In this document: positions 2,667-37,106 of the stretch, piece by piece
Layout: each line of letters opens with the position of its first letter
Numbering within the stretch: position 1 is the stretch's first letter
IMG/VR virus record: IMGVR_UViG_3300033233_000080
Span: 1-40,778 of that record
Strand: one strand, 5' to 3'
DNA from: a virus
DNA length: 40,778 nucleotides
The notes under the pieces: generated by a model
What the model saw: only the letters and a program-made list of their open reading frames with translations
The model's database searches: none
Told to the model about the DNA's origin: nothing
Translations under genes and position numbers: made by a program

Positions 2667-3890
2667 TTATTCTATTATTCTGGACTTTCCAACAATAGTA
2701 GTAGATATAGAGCTTTCTTTTTTTAAATATACTCGTTTTATTCTTTTAGTAAACAAAGATAAAATAATTGTTTGCATTATATCTATAATACCAAAATTTT
2801 CCTTCCTTCCAGCAGAAGCTGTGCTGTGAATAGAAGAAATGTTAATTATTCCTTTTCCACCCTTCTTCCCAAAATTAGAAATAATTTGAGAAGTTGCCAT
2901 TATTTCAATAGAACTTCTTCCACCCTTTTGTCCAGAAGTATTAGTTGTTTGAGTATGCCCAAAAGAAATTGTTCCGTGAGAAAAAACTTTGCCAAAAGTC
3001 AGTGTAAATTGCCCATACCAGCTTGCGGAGATAAAATCACAATGTGCGTCGGTGTCGCCAGCGAAAATGTGGGCGTCATCAAAGTAGAGAGATGAAGAGG
3101 CGGCAAAACCTCTAATAATTGTAAATATTAAATTAGATGTCCCCTCTGGTAATGACCCAGAATAACGGGCTGAATATAAGGAAAAAACATCAGATAAAAC
3201 AATCAATTTAGAATTGCCGCTCCAATCCTGATTGGTGAAGTTATAATAAACATCATTTGACCCAACCTTTGCAAGCAGAGCAAGATAAGCACTTTTATCA
3301 ACAGTAGAAGCTTTTCCCTTAAGTAATATTAAATACTTTTTACCAGCTATAAATTTAGACCAGATGGATTGATTAATAGCAACTCCGTTATTACTTGCAT
3401 CAACATCAAGCCTAACTGCATAATTTCCCCTCGTTTTCTGCGTGCTTTCTTGATTTACTATAGATGAACCTTGTTGCCATTCATCCCAATTTGTCAAATT
3501 CGTGCTGGAATTCCACTGTTCAAAATCGCCGTCTATCAAAATATCAGGATTGACCGAAGCATTTGAAACATTAGAAGCCGAGCTATTGCCATACATAATA
3601 TATATTGTTTTTCCACTCTGACTTATACTCGGCAGAAGAACCCAGAATTCACCGCTCGCCTGTCCGTTTGAAACAGAAAAAGAAAGCCTGTATTGAGAAA
3701 GTTCCGTCCCGCTATCATCACAAAATCTTATATCATAACCATCAGCCCTACAAATCGCTCCGATGTCTGCGTCGTTGGTAAATCTGACCATAACAGGCAC
3801 ATTAGTAATCCCACCCGCTGGCACATAAGTTCCTGGGATTGTAATTTCTTTTGCCCGACGCCAGTTGGGAAAATTATCAAATATTGACAT
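2667..3890 (-). CDS. DUF2341-containing tail/adhesion protein
   Basis: A 407-residue protein with a GGAGAGG ribosome site before the ATG. Residues about 10-105 show the DUF2341 pattern (Pfam PF10102): an opening 'W.RAKEITI', then 'YDIRFCDDSGTEL', then 'FWVLLPSIS...IYIMYGNS'. This beta-sandwich domain is found in surface and carbohydrate-associated proteins. Residues about 120-285 (DGDFEQWNSSTNLTNWDEW onward) look like a second carbohydrate-binding-type sandwich ('YFDDAHIFAG'). The C-terminal 120 residues are Ser/Gly/Ile-rich and end in a basic tail. In this context it is probably a receptor- or polysaccharide-binding tail component. No catalytic motif is seen. Confidence 0.78.
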   Translation of the reverse strand: MSIFDNFPNWRRAKEITIPGTYVPAGGITNVPVMVRFTNDADIGAICRADGYDIRFCDDSGTELSQYRLSFSVSNGQASGEFWVLLPSISQSGKTIYIMYGNSSASNVSNASVNPDILIDGDFEQWNSSTNLTNWDEWQQGSSIVNQESTQKTRGNYAVRLDVDASNNGVAINQSIWSKFIAGKKYLILLKGKASTVDKSAYLALLAKVGSNDVYYNFTNQDWSGNSKLIVLSDVFSLYSARYSGSLPEGTSNLIFTIIRGFAASSSLYFDDAHIFAGDTDAHCDFISASWYGQFTLTFGKVFSHGTISFGHTQTTNTSGQKGGRSSIEIMATSQIISNFGKKGGKGIINISSIHSTASAGRKENFGIIDIMQTIILSLFTKRIKRVYLKKESSISTTIVGKSRIIE

Positions 3891-16569: not shown

Positions 16570-17031
16570 TCACATATTGTCTTTGCCAGGTTCTGATAGA
16601 AATAATTCTTTCTCTGCTTTTCTTCTGTTTATCAATCCCTGCATTGGCTTCTCATTGACATATATCCATCTATCAAATTCCTTAGCAACTTCTTCTAATG
16701 GAGAACCGTCATTTAGTTTTTTCAAAAAAGTTGAATGACTAAATCTAAAAATCCCAATGTTATAAGCAAAGCTTAAAATAGCTACCCATTGATTTTCATT
16801 AAGCTCTCTTTTTATCAGAGGCTCTATTTGGTGAAAGAGATAGATAACATCTTTTCTCAATAAATTCTCCGCTTGCTCTTTTGTAATCTTCTTGAAGTCT
16901 TCATAATCTGTCACGAGATGTCCATAGCCAATTGTAGGAAGACCAGCAAGGTCTGTATAGATTTTCTCACTAAATCCTTCAACTTTTTTTAAAAACTCTA
17001 TTGCCATATCAATAATTAGCTTTTTGTCCAT
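16570..17031 (-). CDS. Endolysin, GH24 (T4-type) muramidase
   Basis: A 153-residue lysozyme of glycoside hydrolase family 24. Residues (from the chosen start) include the catalytic Glu18 in 'KKVEGF', Asp27 and Thr33 in 'YTDLAGLPTIGYGHL', the helix 'QWVAILSFAYNIG', and the family end 'GLINRRKAEKELFL'. It cuts the MurNAc-GlcNAc bond of peptidoglycan. There is no signal peptide, so a holin is needed for release. Start at the second of two ATGs (17029-17031), which is best spaced from GGAG; the other ATG is at 17034. It is the first gene of the late unit, placed 20-50 bases from the promoter. Confidence 0.94.
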   Translation of the reverse strand: MDKKLIIDMAIEFLKKVEGFSEKIYTDLAGLPTIGYGHLVTDYEDFKKITKEQAENLLRKDVIYLFHQIEPLIKRELNENQWVAILSFAYNIGIFRFSHSTFLKKLNDGSPLEEVAKEFDRWIYVNEKPMQGLINRRKAEKELFLSEPGKDNM

Positions 17032-17050
17032 CATCTATCTCCATATTATC

Positions 17051-18746: not shown

Positions 18747-18778
18747 CTTAAAGCTCCTTCTTTCTTTTTCCATTATAC

Positions 18779-18807
18779 CATATAGCACATTTTAACCTGT
18801 TTGTCAA
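18779..18807 (-). promoter_or_regulatory. Promoter for small leftward early genes
   Basis: TTGACA (18802-18807), 17-bp spacer and TATATG (18779-18784) with upstream TGC. It lies just downstream of the terminator of the 296-residue gene and serves the four small genes from 18746 to 17847. Confidence 0.6.
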
Positions 18808-18903
18808 GAGTTTTTTTAAAATTTTATTTTATTTATTATCAATAATTTATAAAAAAATTTAAATCCTATTAATCCTATAAGTTTAGTAAGATTTAAATTA
18901 AAT

Positions 18904-19877: not shown

Positions 19878-19906
19878 ATTATAGCATAAAGCTTTTTAAT
19901 TGTCAA
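19878..19906 (-). promoter_or_regulatory. Leftward early promoter
   Basis: TTGACA (19901-19906), 17-bp spacer, TATAAT (19878-19883) with extended -10 TGC. Its -35 box lies only 3 bases from the -35 box of the opposing promoter at 19910, so one bound RNA polymerase could exclude the other. Confidence 0.85.
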
Positions 19907-19909
19907 GTC

Positions 19910-19938
19910 TTGATAATAAAATTTTTCTATGCTATAAT
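19910..19938 (+). promoter_or_regulatory. Rightward early promoter 1
   Basis: TTGATA (19910-19915), 17-bp spacer, TATAAT (19933-19938), with TGC before the -10. It is back-to-back with the leftward early promoter and reads toward the replication genes. Confidence 0.7.
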
Positions 19939-19972
19939 TAGCTAAAATGTTAAGAAAAATTAACAGCAGGAC

Positions 19973-20001
19973 TTGACAAAGACAAACTTTTATGCTATAA
20001 T
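19973..20001 (+). promoter_or_regulatory. Rightward early promoter 2
   Basis: TTGACA (19973-19978), 17-bp spacer, TATAAT (19996-20001) with TGC before the -10. It is a full consensus promoter, and the stretch TTTATGCTATAATTA is nearly identical in the promoters at 20628 and 19878. Confidence 0.9.
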
Positions 20002-21573: not shown

Positions 21574-21848
21574 TGATTGATAACATTCTTGTCCATAACA
21601 TTAAAGATGTTGAGCTTGCTTGTCCGAGTGATTGTCCAAGGCTTGAAGAATTGGAAGAAAGGTATGAAGAGATGATTGCTGAATGGGAAACTGAGCGGGA
21701 TGCATTTAAGAAAAATTATCCTGATGAGGAACTTCCAGAAGAGTTAAAAGAACCGCCGTTCTTTCCCGAATGTGACGGATGTGAGTATGAGTGGCTTAAA
21801 TATGAAGAAGAACAAATTGCAAAAGCGAGGTTCTTTGACAATGATTGA
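21573..21848 (+). CDS. Acidic Cys-containing early protein (91 aa)
   Basis: A 91-residue acidic protein. 'LACPSDCPRLEELEERYEEM' near the N-terminus and 'FFPECDGCEYEW' near the C-terminus supply two cysteine pairs that may bind one zinc ion across a helical hairpin. It is translationally coupled to the upstream gene and overlaps the downstream zinc-ribbon gene by 8 bases. The function is unknown. Confidence 0.68.
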   Translation: MIDNILVHNIKDVELACPSDCPRLEELEERYEEMIAEWETERDAFKKNYPDEELPEELKEPPFFPECDGCEYEWLKYEEEQIAKARFFDND

Positions 21849-22050
21849 AAGAGCAATAAGGTTCATTGCATTAATTGCTGGCTGTCCAAGGTGTGGAAGC
21901 AAGAGTTTAAAGATTGAACAAATGCTTTATATACCAAATTTGATGACAACAAAGATAACGATTAGCTGCAGCCAGTGCAGTAATAGGTATAGATTAGCAG
22001 TTAGAGATGAGGTTTTATGGAAAGCCTTGACAAATGATTATACATTGTGA
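21841..22050 (+). CDS. Small zinc-ribbon protein (69 aa)
   Basis: A 69-residue protein starting MIERAIRFIALIAGCPRCG, with a second knuckle at 'SCSQCSNRYRL'. The pattern CxxC-x~28-CxxC suggests one zinc ribbon. The ATG at 21841 is chosen because the longer frame lies inside the upstream gene. GAGG lies 10 bases upstream. It ends inside the promoter of the lipoprotein gene. Confidence 0.7.
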   Translation: MIERAIRFIALIAGCPRCGSKSLKIEQMLYIPNLMTTKITISCSQCSNRYRLAVRDEVLWKALTNDYTL

Positions 22051-22056
22051 TATAAT
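22027..22056 (+). promoter_or_regulatory. Promoter of the lipoprotein gene
   Basis: TTGACA (22027-22032), 18-bp spacer, TATAAT (22051-22056) with TGA before the -10. It gives the lipoprotein its own transcription start. Confidence 0.78.
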
Positions 22057-22083
22057 GTTATTATCGTTTGAAAGGAGCAAAAA

Positions 22084-22791
22084 ATGAAAAAACTTTTTAT
22101 CTTTCTCTTGATTGTGTTTATTTTAGCTGGCTGCTATTATAAAGCACCAATAACTTTACCAAAGGAAAAGCAGGAAGAACTAAAAGCTTTTGTGGAAAAG
22201 CACGAAATATTAATGACTTATATCATTGTGCCAAAAGAAATTGTGATGCTAACTTATAACAAAAATAAAGAAATGAGTGAGTATAATTACTTTAGAAAGT
22301 TACCAGCTGAGCTTCAATTGAAGTATGTGGAACTTTATTGGAAAATACGAAATGACTTTTTAAAAAAAGAGTATGAAGATAGAATTGCAATTGCCAATCA
22401 ACTGTTTAAGCACGAAAGATTACATAATGCTTATAATACTGATAGGGGATGGATATTAGTAATCTGTGGCTTTCCCGATTATGTTGACACTTATAAAATT
22501 GATAACAGAGGAGATATGACCTATACTTTTGAAGATGATTTATTATGGGAAGACCCTAATGTTTCTGTTTTTCAAATTTGGAGATATTGGTATTATCCCT
22601 CTGGGCTTCGTAATCACTTAATCATTTTTAGATTTGACTATAATTTTGCTCAAAGAACTTGGAGAATTAATGAACAATTGCTTGGAGCAGAACAGATACG
22701 GTTCATATATCATAAGGCTGAGTATTTTGCTCCCCTGGAATGGGATATATGGAAAGAAGTCTTGACCAAATATAAAGGTCTTGACAAATGA
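22084..22791 (+). CDS. GWxTD-domain-like lipoprotein (235 aa)
   Basis: A 235-residue predicted lipoprotein. Residues 1-17 are a type II signal peptide ending in the lipobox LAGC, with Cys17 as the lipidated residue. The central part 'NAYNTDRGWILVICGFPDYV' (about 118-137) followed by a W-rich stretch 'FQIWRYWYYPSG' and 'LIIFRFDYN' matches the GWxTD-domain pattern (tDRG, yi.yG.P, iW.Y, f.F.D). That domain is known from surface or periplasmic proteins of several bacterial lineages. The gene has its own promoter and the next gene another, so it is moron-like. I infer a role in changing the host envelope, such as superinfection exclusion. The match is by eye. Confidence 0.75.
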   Translation: MKKLFIFLLIVFILAGCYYKAPITLPKEKQEELKAFVEKHEILMTYIIVPKEIVMLTYNKNKEMSEYNYFRKLPAELQLKYVELYWKIRNDFLKKEYEDRIAIANQLFKHERLHNAYNTDRGWILVICGFPDYVDTYKIDNRGDMTYTFEDDLLWEDPNVSVFQIWRYWYYPSGLRNHLIIFRFDYNFAQRTWRINEQLLGAEQIRFIYHKAEYFAPLEWDIWKEVLTKYKGLDK

Positions 22792-22810
22792 TGGGCTTTT
22801 GTGGTATGAT
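22781..22810 (+). promoter_or_regulatory. Promoter for the paralog pair
   Basis: TTGACA (22781-22786), 18-bp spacer, TATGAT (22805-22810) with TGG before the -10. It begins within the last codons of the lipoprotein gene and reads into the duplicated small genes and replication genes. Confidence 0.68.
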
Positions 22811-22839
22811 ATTAGTATCATATGAAAGGAGAAAAAGCG

Positions 22840-23067
22840 ATGATTAATAAGCTTTATTTCAGTCTGGAAGAAATGGGTTTTGATTATGCTTTAGCGGAAT
22901 TACGAGAAAAAGAAAAAGAGTTAACTGTTTATGATGTTCTGCACTCTTTTAGGGAGAAGATTGTAAATAGGGTTAAGAATGATGTTGATTTTGAGTTGAC
23001 CAGCGACGACATAGAAGATGTTAACTCTGGAATAGAATTAGCACTTGCAGAATATTTTCTTCTATAG
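22840..23067 (+). CDS. Small early protein, copy A of tandem pair (75 aa)
   Basis: A 75-residue protein starting MINKLYFSLEEMGFDYAL. It aligns end to end with the following gene (38 of 74 positions identical by eye), so the two arose by tandem duplication. The ATG at 22840 follows AAAGGAG; the longer frame starts before that site. Mostly helical, acidic, no cysteines. The function is unknown. Confidence 0.72.
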   Translation: MINKLYFSLEEMGFDYALAELREKEKELTVYDVLHSFREKIVNRVKNDVDFELTSDDIEDVNSGIELALAEYFLL

Positions 23068-23114: not shown

Positions 23115-23125
23115 AGGAGAAAATG

Positions 23126-23350
23126 ATGAATAAACATTATGAAAGTTTAGAGAAAATGGCTTTTGATTATGCTCTTGAGGAATTAAGAGAAAATGGAAAA
23201 GAAATTGTTGTGTATGATGTTGTGGATAATGTTAGCAGTAAAGTTGTTGAAAGAATTAAAGAAGAAGTAGATTTTGCATTGAGTGATAATAATATTGCAG
23301 AAATTAACTGTGGTGTAGAAGAAGCCATAGCTTTTTATTTATTTTCATAA
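23126..23350 (+). CDS. Small early protein, copy B of tandem pair (74 aa)
   Basis: A paralog of the preceding gene: 'SLEKMAFDYALEELRE' matches 'SLEEMGFDYALAELRE'. The second of two adjacent ATGs (23126) is chosen because it is better spaced from AAGGAG; the other is at 23123. The C-terminal half diverges more than the N-terminal half, suggesting different partners. The function is unknown. Confidence 0.72.
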   Translation: MNKHYESLEKMAFDYALEELRENGKEIVVYDVVDNVSSKVVERIKEEVDFALSDNNIAEINCGVEEAIAFYLFS

Positions 23351-31641: not shown

Positions 31642-31851
31642 TTACCTCTTAATAATAAATTGAACTACTAAGGAAACTAAAATTGAGATAATGCCACCCA
31701 GAACTATCTTTAATAATAGCCAGATATGAGCAAGTTCATTATCAATGATGTCCTTAATCAAATACTCCAAAATTGTTAATCGTTCTTCAACGGTTTTGGT
31801 TAAGCGAGGGTTATCACCCAATTCTCTTAAAACTTTTTCAGATTTCTTCAT
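31642..31851 (-). CDS. XhlA-like membrane protein (holin/lysis accessory)
   Basis: A 69-residue protein with an N-terminal helical, coiled-coil-forming half ('TKTVEERLTILEYLIKDI') and a C-terminal hydrophobic segment (about 45-66, 'LLLKIVLGGIISILVSLV'). This is the shape of haemolysin XhlA-like proteins, which work with holin and amidase in some phages. It overlaps the giant protein's stop by one base. It lies at the far end of the late unit from the endolysin. The lysis role is inferred. Confidence 0.65.
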   Translation of the reverse strand: MKKSEKVLRELGDNPRLTKTVEERLTILEYLIKDIIDNELAHIWLLLKIVLGGIISILVSLVVQFIIKR

Positions 31852-34800
31852 TAGTATCCCCCACTAAGACCAAGTAATTCTTGCAATAAACTCCTTGTTT
31901 CCTCATCCGCATTGGTATCTTCCATTTTGACACCAAGGAACGCTTGCCACCAACTCATACCATTGTTTATTCTTCTTATCATCTTTTCAGCCTGAGCCGC
32001 ACCAGTAATTCCTGCTAATTTAGCAAATGCTGCATAGTCTTCCAGCCTTAGTTCGGAGAACCTTCTCGTTCCCAGAAGCCTATTGGTAGCAGTTCCAACA
32101 TCAATTAAAGTTTGCACAGCTGCGGGTAGAGGAATTTTATAAGGAGTTCCATATTTAAGTGTTGCACCAAATACAGGCACTTGCTCACCCAATTCCCTTA
32201 TCGCCTTTGCGGCAGACAAGAAGACATCTTCTGTTTCAGCATATTTACGGCGGAATTCTCTAATTGGCGTTGGGAATGGAGAACGCATATGCATAATATC
32301 CTCATAGAAATAGTTCCAAGCCATTGTCCAGAATAAAAATCTTCCTGCCTGCACAAAGTCGTCAAATGTGATTGGTTCATTTTTCTTTATTTTCATAACT
32401 GGTGAAAACAACATCTGCTTCATTATGTTCCATTCATTGATAGTAAAGGTCTGGAAAATGGTTAAAAATCTTCCTTCAGCTATTCTCTGTATCTTGGCTA
32501 TATCCTCAGGGTTAGCTGAAGCCTGTGTCCTTACGACAACATCATCAGCATAGTTTATAAGCTTCTTCCCAGTGTATCCAAGTCGTTGTCCTTTTAAATA
32601 GGCGGCATACCAGGTTAATTCCGAAGTAAATAAATCCAGCATTTTTAATGGATAAATACCAGCTTGAGTTATCTTATTCTGCCATAAAATAAATTTTCTC
32701 CAAAACTCTCCAAGTCTTTTAGCTGATGTAGTTTTTTCAAGGTCTTCCTTTAACCATTCAAACATTACATCCATTGACCTTGAAGCAATGTGTTCGCTAT
32801 TTTCTCTGATAAATTTCAACACTTCTTTTGCTCGTGATGGAGACCTGCCCATATCTCTCAAAGCAAGCAAAAAGTCCTTGGCGGTAAGGTCTCTCATTGC
32901 GTTCCGAAAAGCCGCTGGCTGAATGGCTGCACTTCTGGCATTGAAAGACAGAATAGAGGAAGAAACAGACTTCATAATATAAGACATTACTCTGGCAATT
33001 TTAGGCTTATTTTCTATATACCTCAACAAAGAAGGAACTTCACCAACACTGACATAATTTATCCAATGCATAAGTTCTTTACTTATAATTGGTAGATTTT
33101 CTGCCATACTCCAAGCAAAAAGCTTATCTCCAACAGTAAAGCGTATAGGACTTAAGAACAACCTGCCTTCAGCTTTAAGCGGTGCTGTTGCAATCCATCT
33201 GCCGTGCTTACTCATATAAATTTTATAAGTATTAACAAAATCTAATTTAAGTGGCTGTTTATTTGGAACTCTTTCAATGTTAAATGGGTCAAAAACACTT
33301 CTCAAGAAATTACTTACTTTAAGTGGGTTCTTCTCTGAGAAGATTTCAGCATATTCTGGATTTTCTACATATTCTCTAATGGCAGGGAAATAAAATGGGT
33401 TGTCTTTTGAAAGTGGTTCAATACCCAATATTGCCCTGGCTTCATTAGTTTTATCAAACCAGAACCCAGACAGCTCTTTCTGAACATACTCATAAAGTCT
33501 TTTAGCATTTTCAGAAAGCTCTGGGGGTTTTGTAATGCCATAAACTTCTTTTAATGTTGGTCGTAGGTCTTCCTGTTGCCAATAAGCAAGTAAAGCTAAA
33601 TTATGACTATCTTCTTTAGTAATGTTTAGCTCTTTGCATAGCTTATTAAATTCATTTATTTTAGCCTGAACAGTTTTAGCCATAAAGTCAGATGCTTCTC
33701 GTGCTTTGTAATAAAGTCGCTTAAGCGGTTCAGGAAGGTATTGCTCAAAGAAATGAATAGATGGAGTTAAAGCTGTTGTCCAGGCTTTTATATCCTGAGC
33801 CTTCATTAACTTCTTCAACTCGCCGACAGTAAGCTGTGTTACTTTTCCATCAGCAAGACTTCCCTGAATAGCAATTGTAGCATTATCTGGCAGGTAATCT
33901 AAGACTTTTTCAATCGGTGTATCAGCCTCTGGACGAAGACCAGAAACAAGCACTTCTCCCTTTCCGTTGAGAAAAACTTGAACACCATTAGGATGCTCTT
34001 CTAATAATTTTAAATTTAAAGATTTTGCAATGTCCTCAGGTGTAGTAAGAAGACCCATATCTTTCAGGAATTGCTCCATAAAGGATGGGTCATCAAAATT
34101 ATAGGCATTGGTAAAAGTCTTTACAAATTCTTTTAAATCACCAGCTTTTATATCAGATAGAAGTTTTCTCTGAGCTATTGCTACATCAGTTAAATCTTTT
34201 CCACAATGACTGCATTTAACTTGTGGATTATCATCAATAGTAATCTTACCACAATCAGGGCAACGGAATAAGTGTCCATCAAGTATAATTCGTAATTGCT
34301 GTTCTATTGGGAAAGAATTGAGAATTTCTCTTACTTCTTCTACTGAATTTAATGGTCTTTCTTCTTTTAATGTAGGAACTTTATCAACTATATCCTGGGT
34401 TCTATAAGGAACTCCTTTTACATAATCAGTAGGCTTAAATGAAGCAGTTACCCTTGTTGCCCTTATAGGAGTATATAGCTGAATTCCCTTTCCAGGAATA
34501 TATACCCCAACTTTATCATATTTGAATACAATGTCTTCTGGGGTTGGCAATGGAGATGTTCCATCCCAAATATATAAGTCGTTTTTGTTTAGCTTAATTT
34601 CATATAAGGCGTGACCATAATGCTGCTCCATATCAACAGTAGTATCTGGGGTATAAACAGTAATAAAAGGCAACTGTCCTTTCTTGAGCATCTTTTTGGG
34701 ATTGTTTTCTTCAAATATTGAATATGCATCTTTTCCAACAGATAATGGAGAAATCCACGCAGAAGGAGTATTAACTTTATCAGAAAAATAATATCCAGTT

Positions 34801-37106
34801 ATATCGGGTTCTCCAGGAGAATAGGTTCTATCCTGAATTTTTCCAAGCGGAGCATCACTTGTTCCTTCAACTTTGATTTCTACCAAATCTTTAAGATAAA
34901 AAATAGCTTCCTGTTTAGCTCTTCTACCATACTCTAAAGCCTTTTCTCTATCTTTGACAACAACTACAATATCTAAATAGTTTGATGTTCCCTTTTTTCT
35001 CCAAGTTCCAATGTTATAGAATGGGTTGGACAGAAGGTCTGCATTTCTATTTATGAAGTCAATAATATCTTCTTTAGTAATAGGTCTGTCCTTGATAACC
35101 AAGCTGCGTTCAGGGAAAATAGAGACAGCATAAGCATCTTCTCCGACTCTATTTCCTTTATACAAACTAAAAGTTGCACCATCATATTCATTGTGAACTT
35201 TAGCAATTTCTGGAGCTAATCTTGCTGCTTTTACTTTGAAGTAAGTCAGCAATGGGACTTCTTCTGGTTTAGGACTTCCAAGCTCGTTTCTAAATCGTTC
35301 TTCTGTCCAGTATAGTTCTTTTTCTTTTGGTGTATCTCCAATGTATTGACCAACCTTGGTGGTTTTAATATAACGCTCAAAGTTTGTTTGGTCGTCTATA
35401 AATGGGTCGGGATATTTTTCAATTACAAGTCCTTCTGGCGTTTTAAGTAAACGACCATTTCTCAATCCACGCTTAATCCAAGCTAATGTTCCAAATTTAG
35501 GTTCTTTAATTCTACCCAGTTCATCTTTTTCTGGATATGGAACTGTTTCTGGTGACTCATAATGGTTTATTAGTAGAATACTTTCGTTAATTCTTTTCTC
35601 TAACTGGTCATAGAAGAACCCTTCTGGCATCTCTTTTGGCTTCTCTTCGTTTGTTTGTCTCCATCTGTTTATGTCTCCATAAGCAGCATTTATAACTTTC
35701 TTTATAGCTTGTAGCTCAGTCAAAGGAATTCTTTGTCCTTCTTTAGCACTCTCCACAAAGCTCTTTAGAGCCTCTAATCTGGCTAATGGGTTCTTGGCTT
35801 TCCTTATCTTCTCCATAGTTTCTTGCCACTCTGGAGAAGGCATTGGATTATTATTAATATCATCTATAACACGCTTAACCCATTCTCTTAATTCATCTTC
35901 TGGTTTTCCTTCTTCCTCTTCTATTCTTCTAAGTTCTTCATCAATTTGAGATTTTAATGCTCTGGCTAATACTGCCTGTGGAACAAATTTAGTGTTATAT
36001 CCAAAATAAGCAGCAATACCTGCAGAATAAATAACATCTACTAAATCTCTGTCCTCAATCCCATTTAATAGCATATCAGCAGCTGCAGCTGCACCAGCTT
36101 TAGCAACATTAAAAAGAAGTGGAGTTTTTAAAGGAGTAATAAAGCTTAAAGTCCTTGCTTTTGGTTTAGCAAAAAGAAATGTAGCAAGCTCTGGGCTTAA
36201 TACTCCAATAACATTATATATAGAAGAAATTTCAGCACCGTGAGCAAAGTTTTTGAGACGATTAGATAAATCTTCTGGTAATGATTTTCCAAGCGGTGTT
36301 TGTAAAGCAAAAACAGTTCCTAAAGTTAATCCCTCAGCAAATGTCTTTTTACCCCAAGCAACAGCGGCAGCAGCAGCTCTATTGAAAAATTTTCCCTCAC
36401 CATAAATGGTTTTAAGAGTAGTTTCAGGAATAATGGCATCAGCAACTGCAGACATACCTTTAGCAATAAATGGGAATAAAGGAGAAGCAATATTTCCAGC
36501 AATTGACGATAAACCAGATGCTATTTTTTCTGCCTTTGTTTCTGGTTCATAAGTAAATAAATCTTTATGTGTAGCCCTTCCATAAAGTTCGGCGGCTAAT
36601 CTTGGCACAAAAAGAGTAAGAGCATCAAATGATGCTGTTCCTGCAGCAGTTATTAACCCAGATAGAGGGTCATAACCAACCTTTCCTTCTGGTGTTACAT
36701 ATTTTCCTGTTGGAATAGGAAGACCATAGTATTTCTTCACCTCATACCTGTTTTCTGGCGGTGTTATGCCTGTCATTGCCATATATCTGGCATTGGCAAG
36801 CTCACTCTGAAACTGCGTTTTTTCTGGTTCAAGAGTCATTTGTTGTTGCTGCTGAGGAACAATACCATAGAGTTCTTTATTCATAAACTCATCAACGCTT
36901 TTTATCAGCTCGTCTACAGATTGATTGGTAGCTGTTGGTTGCTGTGGTGTAGGAACAGAAGTAGGAGTCGGAGCTGGAGTAGGAGCAGGAGTTGGTGTAG
37001 GAGTAGTGCTGGCTTTACTTAATGAAAAGCCAAGGTCTTTTTCTAAAAATTTATCAACATCATTAATAAGTTCTTTTTCCTTTTTTTCCTGTTCATTATC
37101 AATCAT
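31851..37106 (-). CDS. Giant polyvalent/ejection-type internal virion protein (1751 aa)
   Basis: A 1751-residue protein with a modular layout. Residues about 35-65 are a Pro/Thr-rich linker (repeated PTPAP units). Residues about 170-390 contain several Ala-rich hydrophobic segments. Residues about 500-760 hold a region with 'ERSLVIKDRPITKEDIIDFI' and 'LDIVVVVKDREKALEYG', resembling parts of large polyvalent phage proteins. A zinc ribbon ('HLFRCPDCGKITID' and 'QVKCSHCGKDLTDV') lies around 945-972. The C-terminal 370 residues ('FNARSAAIQPAAFRNAMRDL', 'TIFQTFTINEWNIMKQML') look like the helical domain seen at the ends of such proteins. As in podoviruses, it probably goes into the cell with the DNA or forms a trans-envelope channel. 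No transglycosylase motif is evident. Confidence 0.8.
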   Translation of the reverse strand: MIDNEQEKKEKELINDVDKFLEKDLGFSLSKASTTPTPTPAPTPAPTPTSVPTPQQPTATNQSVDELIKSVDEFMNKELYGIVPQQQQQMTLEPEKTQFQSELANARYMAMTGITPPENRYEVKKYYGLPIPTGKYVTPEGKVGYDPLSGLITAAGTASFDALTLFVPRLAAELYGRATHKDLFTYEPETKAEKIASGLSSIAGNIASPLFPFIAKGMSAVADAIIPETTLKTIYGEGKFFNRAAAAAVAWGKKTFAEGLTLGTVFALQTPLGKSLPEDLSNRLKNFAHGAEISSIYNVIGVLSPELATFLFAKPKARTLSFITPLKTPLLFNVAKAGAAAAADMLLNGIEDRDLVDVIYSAGIAAYFGYNTKFVPQAVLARALKSQIDEELRRIEEEEGKPEDELREWVKRVIDDINNNPMPSPEWQETMEKIRKAKNPLARLEALKSFVESAKEGQRIPLTELQAIKKVINAAYGDINRWRQTNEEKPKEMPEGFFYDQLEKRINESILLINHYESPETVPYPEKDELGRIKEPKFGTLAWIKRGLRNGRLLKTPEGLVIEKYPDPFIDDQTNFERYIKTTKVGQYIGDTPKEKELYWTEERFRNELGSPKPEEVPLLTYFKVKAARLAPEIAKVHNEYDGATFSLYKGNRVGEDAYAVSIFPERSLVIKDRPITKEDIIDFINRNADLLSNPFYNIGTWRKKGTSNYLDIVVVVKDREKALEYGRRAKQEAIFYLKDLVEIKVEGTSDAPLGKIQDRTYSPGEPDITGYYFSDKVNTPSAWISPLSVGKDAYSIFEENNPKKMLKKGQLPFITVYTPDTTVDMEQHYGHALYEIKLNKNDLYIWDGTSPLPTPEDIVFKYDKVGVYIPGKGIQLYTPIRATRVTASFKPTDYVKGVPYRTQDIVDKVPTLKEERPLNSVEEVREILNSFPIEQQLRIILDGHLFRCPDCGKITIDDNPQVKCSHCGKDLTDVAIAQRKLLSDIKAGDLKEFVKTFTNAYNFDDPSFMEQFLKDMGLLTTPEDIAKSLNLKLLEEHPNGVQVFLNGKGEVLVSGLRPEADTPIEKVLDYLPDNATIAIQGSLADGKVTQLTVGELKKLMKAQDIKAWTTALTPSIHFFEQYLPEPLKRLYYKAREASDFMAKTVQAKINEFNKLCKELNITKEDSHNLALLAYWQQEDLRPTLKEVYGITKPPELSENAKRLYEYVQKELSGFWFDKTNEARAILGIEPLSKDNPFYFPAIREYVENPEYAEIFSEKNPLKVSNFLRSVFDPFNIERVPNKQPLKLDFVNTYKIYMSKHGRWIATAPLKAEGRLFLSPIRFTVGDKLFAWSMAENLPIISKELMHWINYVSVGEVPSLLRYIENKPKIARVMSYIMKSVSSSILSFNARSAAIQPAAFRNAMRDLTAKDFLLALRDMGRSPSRAKEVLKFIRENSEHIASRSMDVMFEWLKEDLEKTTSAKRLGEFWRKFILWQNKITQAGIYPLKMLDLFTSELTWYAAYLKGQRLGYTGKKLINYADDVVVRTQASANPEDIAKIQRIAEGRFLTIFQTFTINEWNIMKQMLFSPVMKIKKNEPITFDDFVQAGRFLFWTMAWNYFYEDIMHMRSPFPTPIREFRRKYAETEDVFLSAAKAIRELGEQVPVFGATLKYGTPYKIPLPAAVQTLIDVGTATNRLLGTRRFSELRLEDYAAFAKLAGITGAAQAEKMIRRINNGMSWWQAFLGVKMEDTNADEETRSLLQELLGLSGGY

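Follow-up and report, generated by a model that had tools for sequence, protein, structure and literature searches.

A GWxTD-type lipoprotein encoded by a tailed phage and its likely origin in Aminicenantia

The phage and its lipoprotein gene

The DNA considered here, called the window below, is a 40.8-kb virus record of IMG/VR (IMGVR_UViG_3300033233_000080, 40,778 nucleotides), taken over its whole length. By annotation searches the contig codes for a P22-like portal, a terminase and a major head protein, and also for a family A DNA polymerase (PolA), a primase-polymerase/helicase protein, an exonuclease and a lysozyme. Since portal, terminase, head and replication genes occur together, the window is from a tailed phage, and the view of a preliminary description that the lipoprotein gene discussed here is phage-encoded is borne out by the portal, terminase, capsid, PolA and primase genes with which it shares the contig. 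Two close relatives in IMG/VR are a sister phage of 41.7 kb (G001, 3300005573_000152, with lipoprotein locus L002) and one of 38.9 kb (L150/L153, 3300031749_000015). Several fragments are further relatives; the source of one of them, 3300031463, is LCB019, a hot spring in Yellowstone for which incubation was at the in situ 55 C (PMC10033731). A thermal estimate of 47 C derived from amino-acid composition was discarded as too rough. The features of interest are these:

18773..18860, minus strand: phage promoter (18773-18808) with AT-rich upstream element, resembling Aminicenantia dnaK promoters
21841..22050, plus strand: upstream small CxxC (zinc-ribbon-like) gene
22021..22082, plus strand: promoter and ribosome-binding site cassette, 5′ copy of a 62-nt direct repeat
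22027..22056, plus strand: sigma70-type promoter with extended -10, a perfect TTGACA-18-TATAAT, inside the 3′ end of the upstream gene
22071..22077, plus strand: ribosome-binding site AAAGGAG, from the sequence
22084..22791, plus strand: GWxTD lipoprotein gene, ATG start, 235 amino acids, TIGR04514 match
22084..22134, plus strand: predicted signal peptide, residues 1-16, and lipidation Cys17 (lipobox L14-A15-G16-C17)
22276..22587, plus strand: GWxTD core, residues 65-168, by TIGR04514 match
22429..22449, plus strand: motif AYNTDRG, residues 116-122, counterpart of GWxTDRG in an alignment of 48 domains
22775..22836, plus strand: promoter and ribosome-binding site cassette, 3′ copy of the repeat, kept in L002 and L150

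What makes the product a predicted lipoprotein of the GWxTD type? Its N-terminus, MKKLFIFLLIVFILAGC, has n-region, hydrophobic core and lipobox all present, so that the LAGC at residues 14-17 noted from the sequence stands, with the Pfam model LPAM_1 near its cut-off (18.5 bits, slightly below the 20 called for). Profile search likewise upholds the domain assignment, NCBIfam TIGR04514 giving 41.8 bits (E 1.2e-10) for the window protein and 42.4 bits for that of the sister phage, with a cut-off of 28. That the literal GWxTD is absent, AY replacing GW in both the AYNTDRG of the window and the AYKTDRG of the sister, and that the window copy at 21.5 bits (E 2e-4) misses the Pfam PF20094 cut-off of 26.9, might be taken to mean a chance resemblance to something that is not GWxTD at all. 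Against this, TIGR04514 is far above cut-off in both phages, the sister with 28.6 bits passes the Pfam cut-off also, and an independent HMM, made from 66 bacterial GWxTD domains with the phage rows left out, scores the phage pair at 34.4 and 39.9 bits, while 1000 shuffled copies reach at most 11.9. As residues 66-231 moreover match cellular lipoproteins of the same layout, chance is now scarcely credible as an explanation and can be regarded as largely refuted. In the 48-row alignment T-D-R-G, G.P, W.Y and F are kept in the phages, the exceptions being the G-W pair together with the next residue. AlphaFold2 on that alignment yielded a mean pLDDT of 70.4, the ten-residue blocks over mature-chain residues 61-180 averaging 73-93 except for 64 at 151-160. 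The phage lipoprotein has no sequence match in solved structures, and its model has no fold match in the PDB and none among the viral structures of BFVD.

The window and sister lipoproteins are 78% identical, with a dN/dS of 0.156 and a synonymous distance close to that of core genes. Judged by this pattern of substitution, the gene is a real protein-coding gene under purifying selection, and probably was already in the common ancestor of the two phages and kept functional since. Its base composition is the phage's own, so capture, if there was any, is old.

Are there other such proteins in viruses? Two DNA-pattern scans of IMG/VR (GWKTDRG, and an AT-rich GWxTDRG) returned about 70 stretches, chance hits with no real domain, and a profile-guided scan of the same collection returned 13 stretches, again with no real GWxTD domain. 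In bacterial genomes a similar pattern, among the matches listed, found mostly real GWxTD domains. INPHARED, queried with the phage or an Ignavibacteriota protein, had no other viral GWxTD protein, and PHROGs and BFVD had none. Within these searches, which were targeted rather than exhaustive and whose scan patterns would miss motifs like AYNTD, the proteins described here are the sole virus-encoded GWxTD kind found. No paper mentioning GWxTD domains was found in the literature searched.

Other parts of the genome merit a brief mention. At 2667-3890 on the minus strand is a tail-region protein with a DUF2341 match, about 30% identical to its G001 counterpart over the C-terminal part and with no match in L150, though its neighbours are about 90% identical; on that pattern it is a candidate receptor-binding protein. 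A 1751-residue protein (31851-37106, minus strand), whose sole hit is a weak zinc-ribbon, adjoins virion genes and is probably a large virion protein. Just beyond the lipoprotein gene two small related plus-strand genes in tandem (22840-23067 and 23123-23350), 71% identical over 160 nt, both match one single gene in G001, and likewise in L150.

Promoters and accessory status

Both promoters that had been proposed were found, the one at 22027-22056 perfect and the other, at 22781-22810, matching the consensus at 11 of 12 positions. Perfect sites number 6 in the window, whereas 100 dinucleotide shuffles have 0.09 on average and never more than 1. The two 62-nt repeats, each a promoter plus ribosome-binding site, are 76% identical and flank the lipoprotein gene; the 3′ cassette spans its last codons and stop, and drives the next gene. 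In T4-like phages, repeated early-promoter cassettes between genes are likely sites of gene exchange. The repeated promoter segments of the window are alike in kind, but there are only two copies, flanking a gene, and exchange through them is putative.

Do these promoters isolate the gene as a moron with its own transcription? No terminator-like site occurs between 22084 and 22840, that is, before the next gene, and in the sister the 5′ promoter is absent, the homologue of the upstream CxxC gene there overlapping the lipoprotein start as ATGA. The proposed isolation as a separate unit is thus not confirmed, and the gene's own promoter, a perfect site in the window, is a feature of the window only, with read-in from upstream also probable. 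The term moron fits the gene loosely, in that it is absent at the same place in L150; a terminator of its own is lacking and the promoter is not conserved. Around the gene are small genes of the plus strand, with the replication genes downstream, and from this gene order and the host-type promoters we infer early expression. At the switch from minus- to plus-strand genes (19878-20001), perfect promoters stand back to back (19906 minus, 19973 plus), and there the GC skew changes sign as well.

As the preliminary description's moron would have it, the gene is indeed accessory: the third related phage, L150, is without it, while G001 has it at the same place. In L150 the upstream gene continues in frame into a remnant of the lipoprotein's last codons (KGLDK), and a ribosome-binding-site-like GAAAGGAG is left before the gap. 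Two stretches of 10-11 kb show 93-95% identity between L150 and G001, with the window as outgroup at 84-88%. With those two phages closest to each other, loss in L150 is the simplest history and likelier than gain, and so clean a deletion would fit a dispensable, accessory gene. A separate observation in L150 (6250-6555) concerns the adjoining coiled-coil gene, which is extended in frame at its N-terminus by a sequence that includes a hydrophobic stretch and FVGC, similar to a lipobox; considered as a replacement GWxTD protein, this sequence was rejected, being just an extension of that gene.

Cellular relatives and the likely host

GWxTD domains are common in Acidobacteriota and in Bacteroidota-related phyla, so from which of them might the phage domain have come? 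A two-row phage profile was run identically against samples of several bacterial groups. In the Aminicenantia sample (142 genomes from the class of Ca. Aminicenantes JdFR-80, the label being that of this centre genome) 69 genomes matched at 1e-4 or better, the best at 6.9e-13 over residues 66-231 of the profile. Bacteroidota in the wide sense (296 genomes, 18 of them matching at 1e-3 or better) gave a best E of 3.3e-7 over part of the domain only, and Bacteroidota/Ignavibacteriota were set aside as donor. Among 297 genomes from the phylum to which a Blastocatellia genome belongs there were 8 matches at or below 1e-6, all also returned by the Aminicenantia search, and the other Acidobacteriota sampled had none at 1e-6 beyond the genomes shared with that search. 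Cloacimonadota, KSB1, Calditrichota and others were sampled by one or a few genomes each, so a closer source among these is possible.

The best Aminicenantia matches are a family of single-domain GWxTD lipoproteins of about 215 residues, present in at least 38 of the 142 genomes; the three members tested are called GWxTD by NCBIfam, and across the family the motif is mostly PWNTD. In size and layout these otherwise unnamed TIGR04514 members (for example L251, L252, L254, L255) are like the phage protein: a lipobox signal and then one GWxTD domain to the end, a C-terminal helix, often N as the x of the motif (NTDR), and loss of the DPxPgTxxNE loop of long members. Nearly all have a hydrophobic signal with Cys (L283 and L284 are without the Cys), as do many long homologues, in keeping with the lipoprotein nature that had been put forward and unlike the purely cytoplasmic homologues, free of a lipobox, that would have contradicted it. 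The long GWxTD proteins of Bacteroidota, Ignavibacteriota and Acidobacteriota (PF20094/TIGR04514), many of them predicted lipoproteins, share domain and core residues with the phage protein but differ in being 350-800 residues long with other domains and a weaker match, the domain often being C-terminal in Bacteroidota.

Identity of the phage lipoprotein to the short family is nevertheless at most 26%, its motif is AYNTDRG rather than PWNTDR[AG], and 26 of 44 family-conserved positions are changed in it, including most of the N-terminal WYxxHY block, which is not kept. W86, N118, D120, R121, G129, P131, W166, Y168, F184 and W193 are common to both, which suggests a working domain. A first tree, from which the short Aminicenantia family was left out, had the phages on a long branch of unclear place; in a quick tree that includes it, the short family and the phage proteins form one clade (SH-aLRT 95, with two long stems), in which the phages branch beside the family as its sister and not from inside it. 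The expectation that the domain would point to a lineage is therefore supported, that lineage being Aminicenantia by best match and by common clade with bacterial homologues.

Is there independent evidence for the host? In six Aminicenantia genomes the sequence preceding the dnaK promoter is 83-89% identical, over 44-55 bp, to the upstream element of the minus-strand promoter at 18773-18808, and this element also resembles sequence upstream of a ribonucleotide-reductase-like and a gyrB-like gene (names read from N-termini). At E at or below 1e-4 it was found in 29 of the 142 Aminicenantia genomes (best 1.2e-13) versus 7 of the 296 Bacteroidota genomes (best 2.7e-7). Possibly, then, the phage uses a host-type strong promoter here, and the element, being AT-rich, gives support for the host short of proof. 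Parts of the window set against 20 GWxTD-bearing, 294 Ignavibacterium-class and 142 Aminicenantia genomes gave no convincing CRISPR-spacer-like DNA; what that search returned was PolA-coding, low-complexity and promoter-element matches. On these sequence comparisons Aminicenantia is likely both the donor and the host lineage. Obsidian Pool in Yellowstone is where this candidate phylum, then OP8 and now Aminicenantes, was discovered (PMC3956909); its reported links to viruses are two contigs in IMG/VR v2 (PMC6323928) and, from a study of hot-spring mats, a single CRISPR link (PMC7490370).

What the protein may do at the envelope

With sequence as the basis for domain, lipobox, purifying selection, accessory status and relatedness to Aminicenantia, the phage gene would be an envelope gene of host origin and code for a phage form of the short, single-domain GWxTD lipoproteins made by that class. 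Host-type promoters probably drive its expression early in infection; the host would then export the product and attach a lipid at Cys17, anchoring it most likely to the outer membrane on the periplasmic side. We guess that it there occupies the partner site of a resident GWxTD lipoprotein, altering the surface of the infected cell, and that it might keep related phages out by jamming, or simply binding, an outer-membrane protein that phages use as receptor or as a way in. Action at the outer membrane is favoured because of the accessory status, the likely early expression, the lipid anchor and the altered host-type envelope domain.

The model for such exclusion is Llp of T5, an outer-membrane phage lipoprotein that jams the receptor FhuA from the periplasm (PMC9586334). 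Llp and Cor (PMC9586334) are, like the present protein, phage-encoded lipoproteins aimed at the outer membrane, but they are much smaller, no homology to them was detected, and their exclusion is experimental where here it is a guess. The Ltp-type lipoproteins of Streptococcus phages (PMC3952083) are also phage lipoproteins at the host envelope, though of temperate phages in Gram-positive hosts and again with no homology detected. No match to known exclusion lipoproteins came from PHROGs, PADLOC or INPHARED. By this analogy, superinfection exclusion in the manner of Llp, the kind of role that the preliminary description had in mind, would be the likeliest single benefit, held tentatively and with somewhat more doubt than belief; the loss in L150 is also what a gene with little value would be expected to undergo.

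Might the gene instead help the host envelope along? It could be an auxiliary envelope gene that supplements or tunes the host's GWxTD function, in envelope assembly, transport or stress, so that the infected cell stays productive without any exclusion. The kept core residues of the domain, the wide spread of the host family in Aminicenantia and purifying selection all agree with that, but with 26 of the 44 family-conserved positions altered it is no plain functional copy, and we consider this reading conceivable though unlikely. The combination of host-like architecture with changed family-specific positions would suit a dominant-negative copy too, one that displaces the host GWxTD lipoprotein and stops its envelope function, as takeover rather than exclusion. 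The gene neighbours of the host short family, which tell against this rather improbable course, are mixed housekeeping genes with no constant partner; in some genomes an outer-membrane beta-barrel receptor is among them. Observed separately, the short GWxTD gene is often beside two longer ones (L256:763-3740, also L258, L273, L278), of about 300-340 and about 700 residues, the long one in L256 with TPR at its C-terminus; this arrangement hints at a GWxTD system made up of several proteins.

Since the host is probably didermic, a phage lipoprotein also brings to mind lysis, and an outer-membrane spanin type of subunit. Those are usually much smaller, however, and the gene lies in the replication-side plus-strand cluster, distant from the lysozyme (16570-17034) and a transmembrane coiled-coil gene on the minus strand, and a close relative, L150, is without it, all of which makes such a role very improbable.

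Returning to exclusion, one may speculate that GWxTD lipoproteins are part of an outer-membrane complex which Aminicenantia phages must pass, and that the captured and altered phage copy jams that complex; we put this forward as an idea with much more against its being right than for it. If true, the phage protein would be the first of the GWxTD kind known from a virus, and could serve as a natural probe of what a widespread domain does. That a phage took, kept and altered a GWxTD domain under purifying selection would mean that the domain is useful at the envelope during infection, and the phage copy offers a small single-domain version for study. The data also suggest that these phages form a group infecting Aminicenantia, for which few links to viruses are on record.
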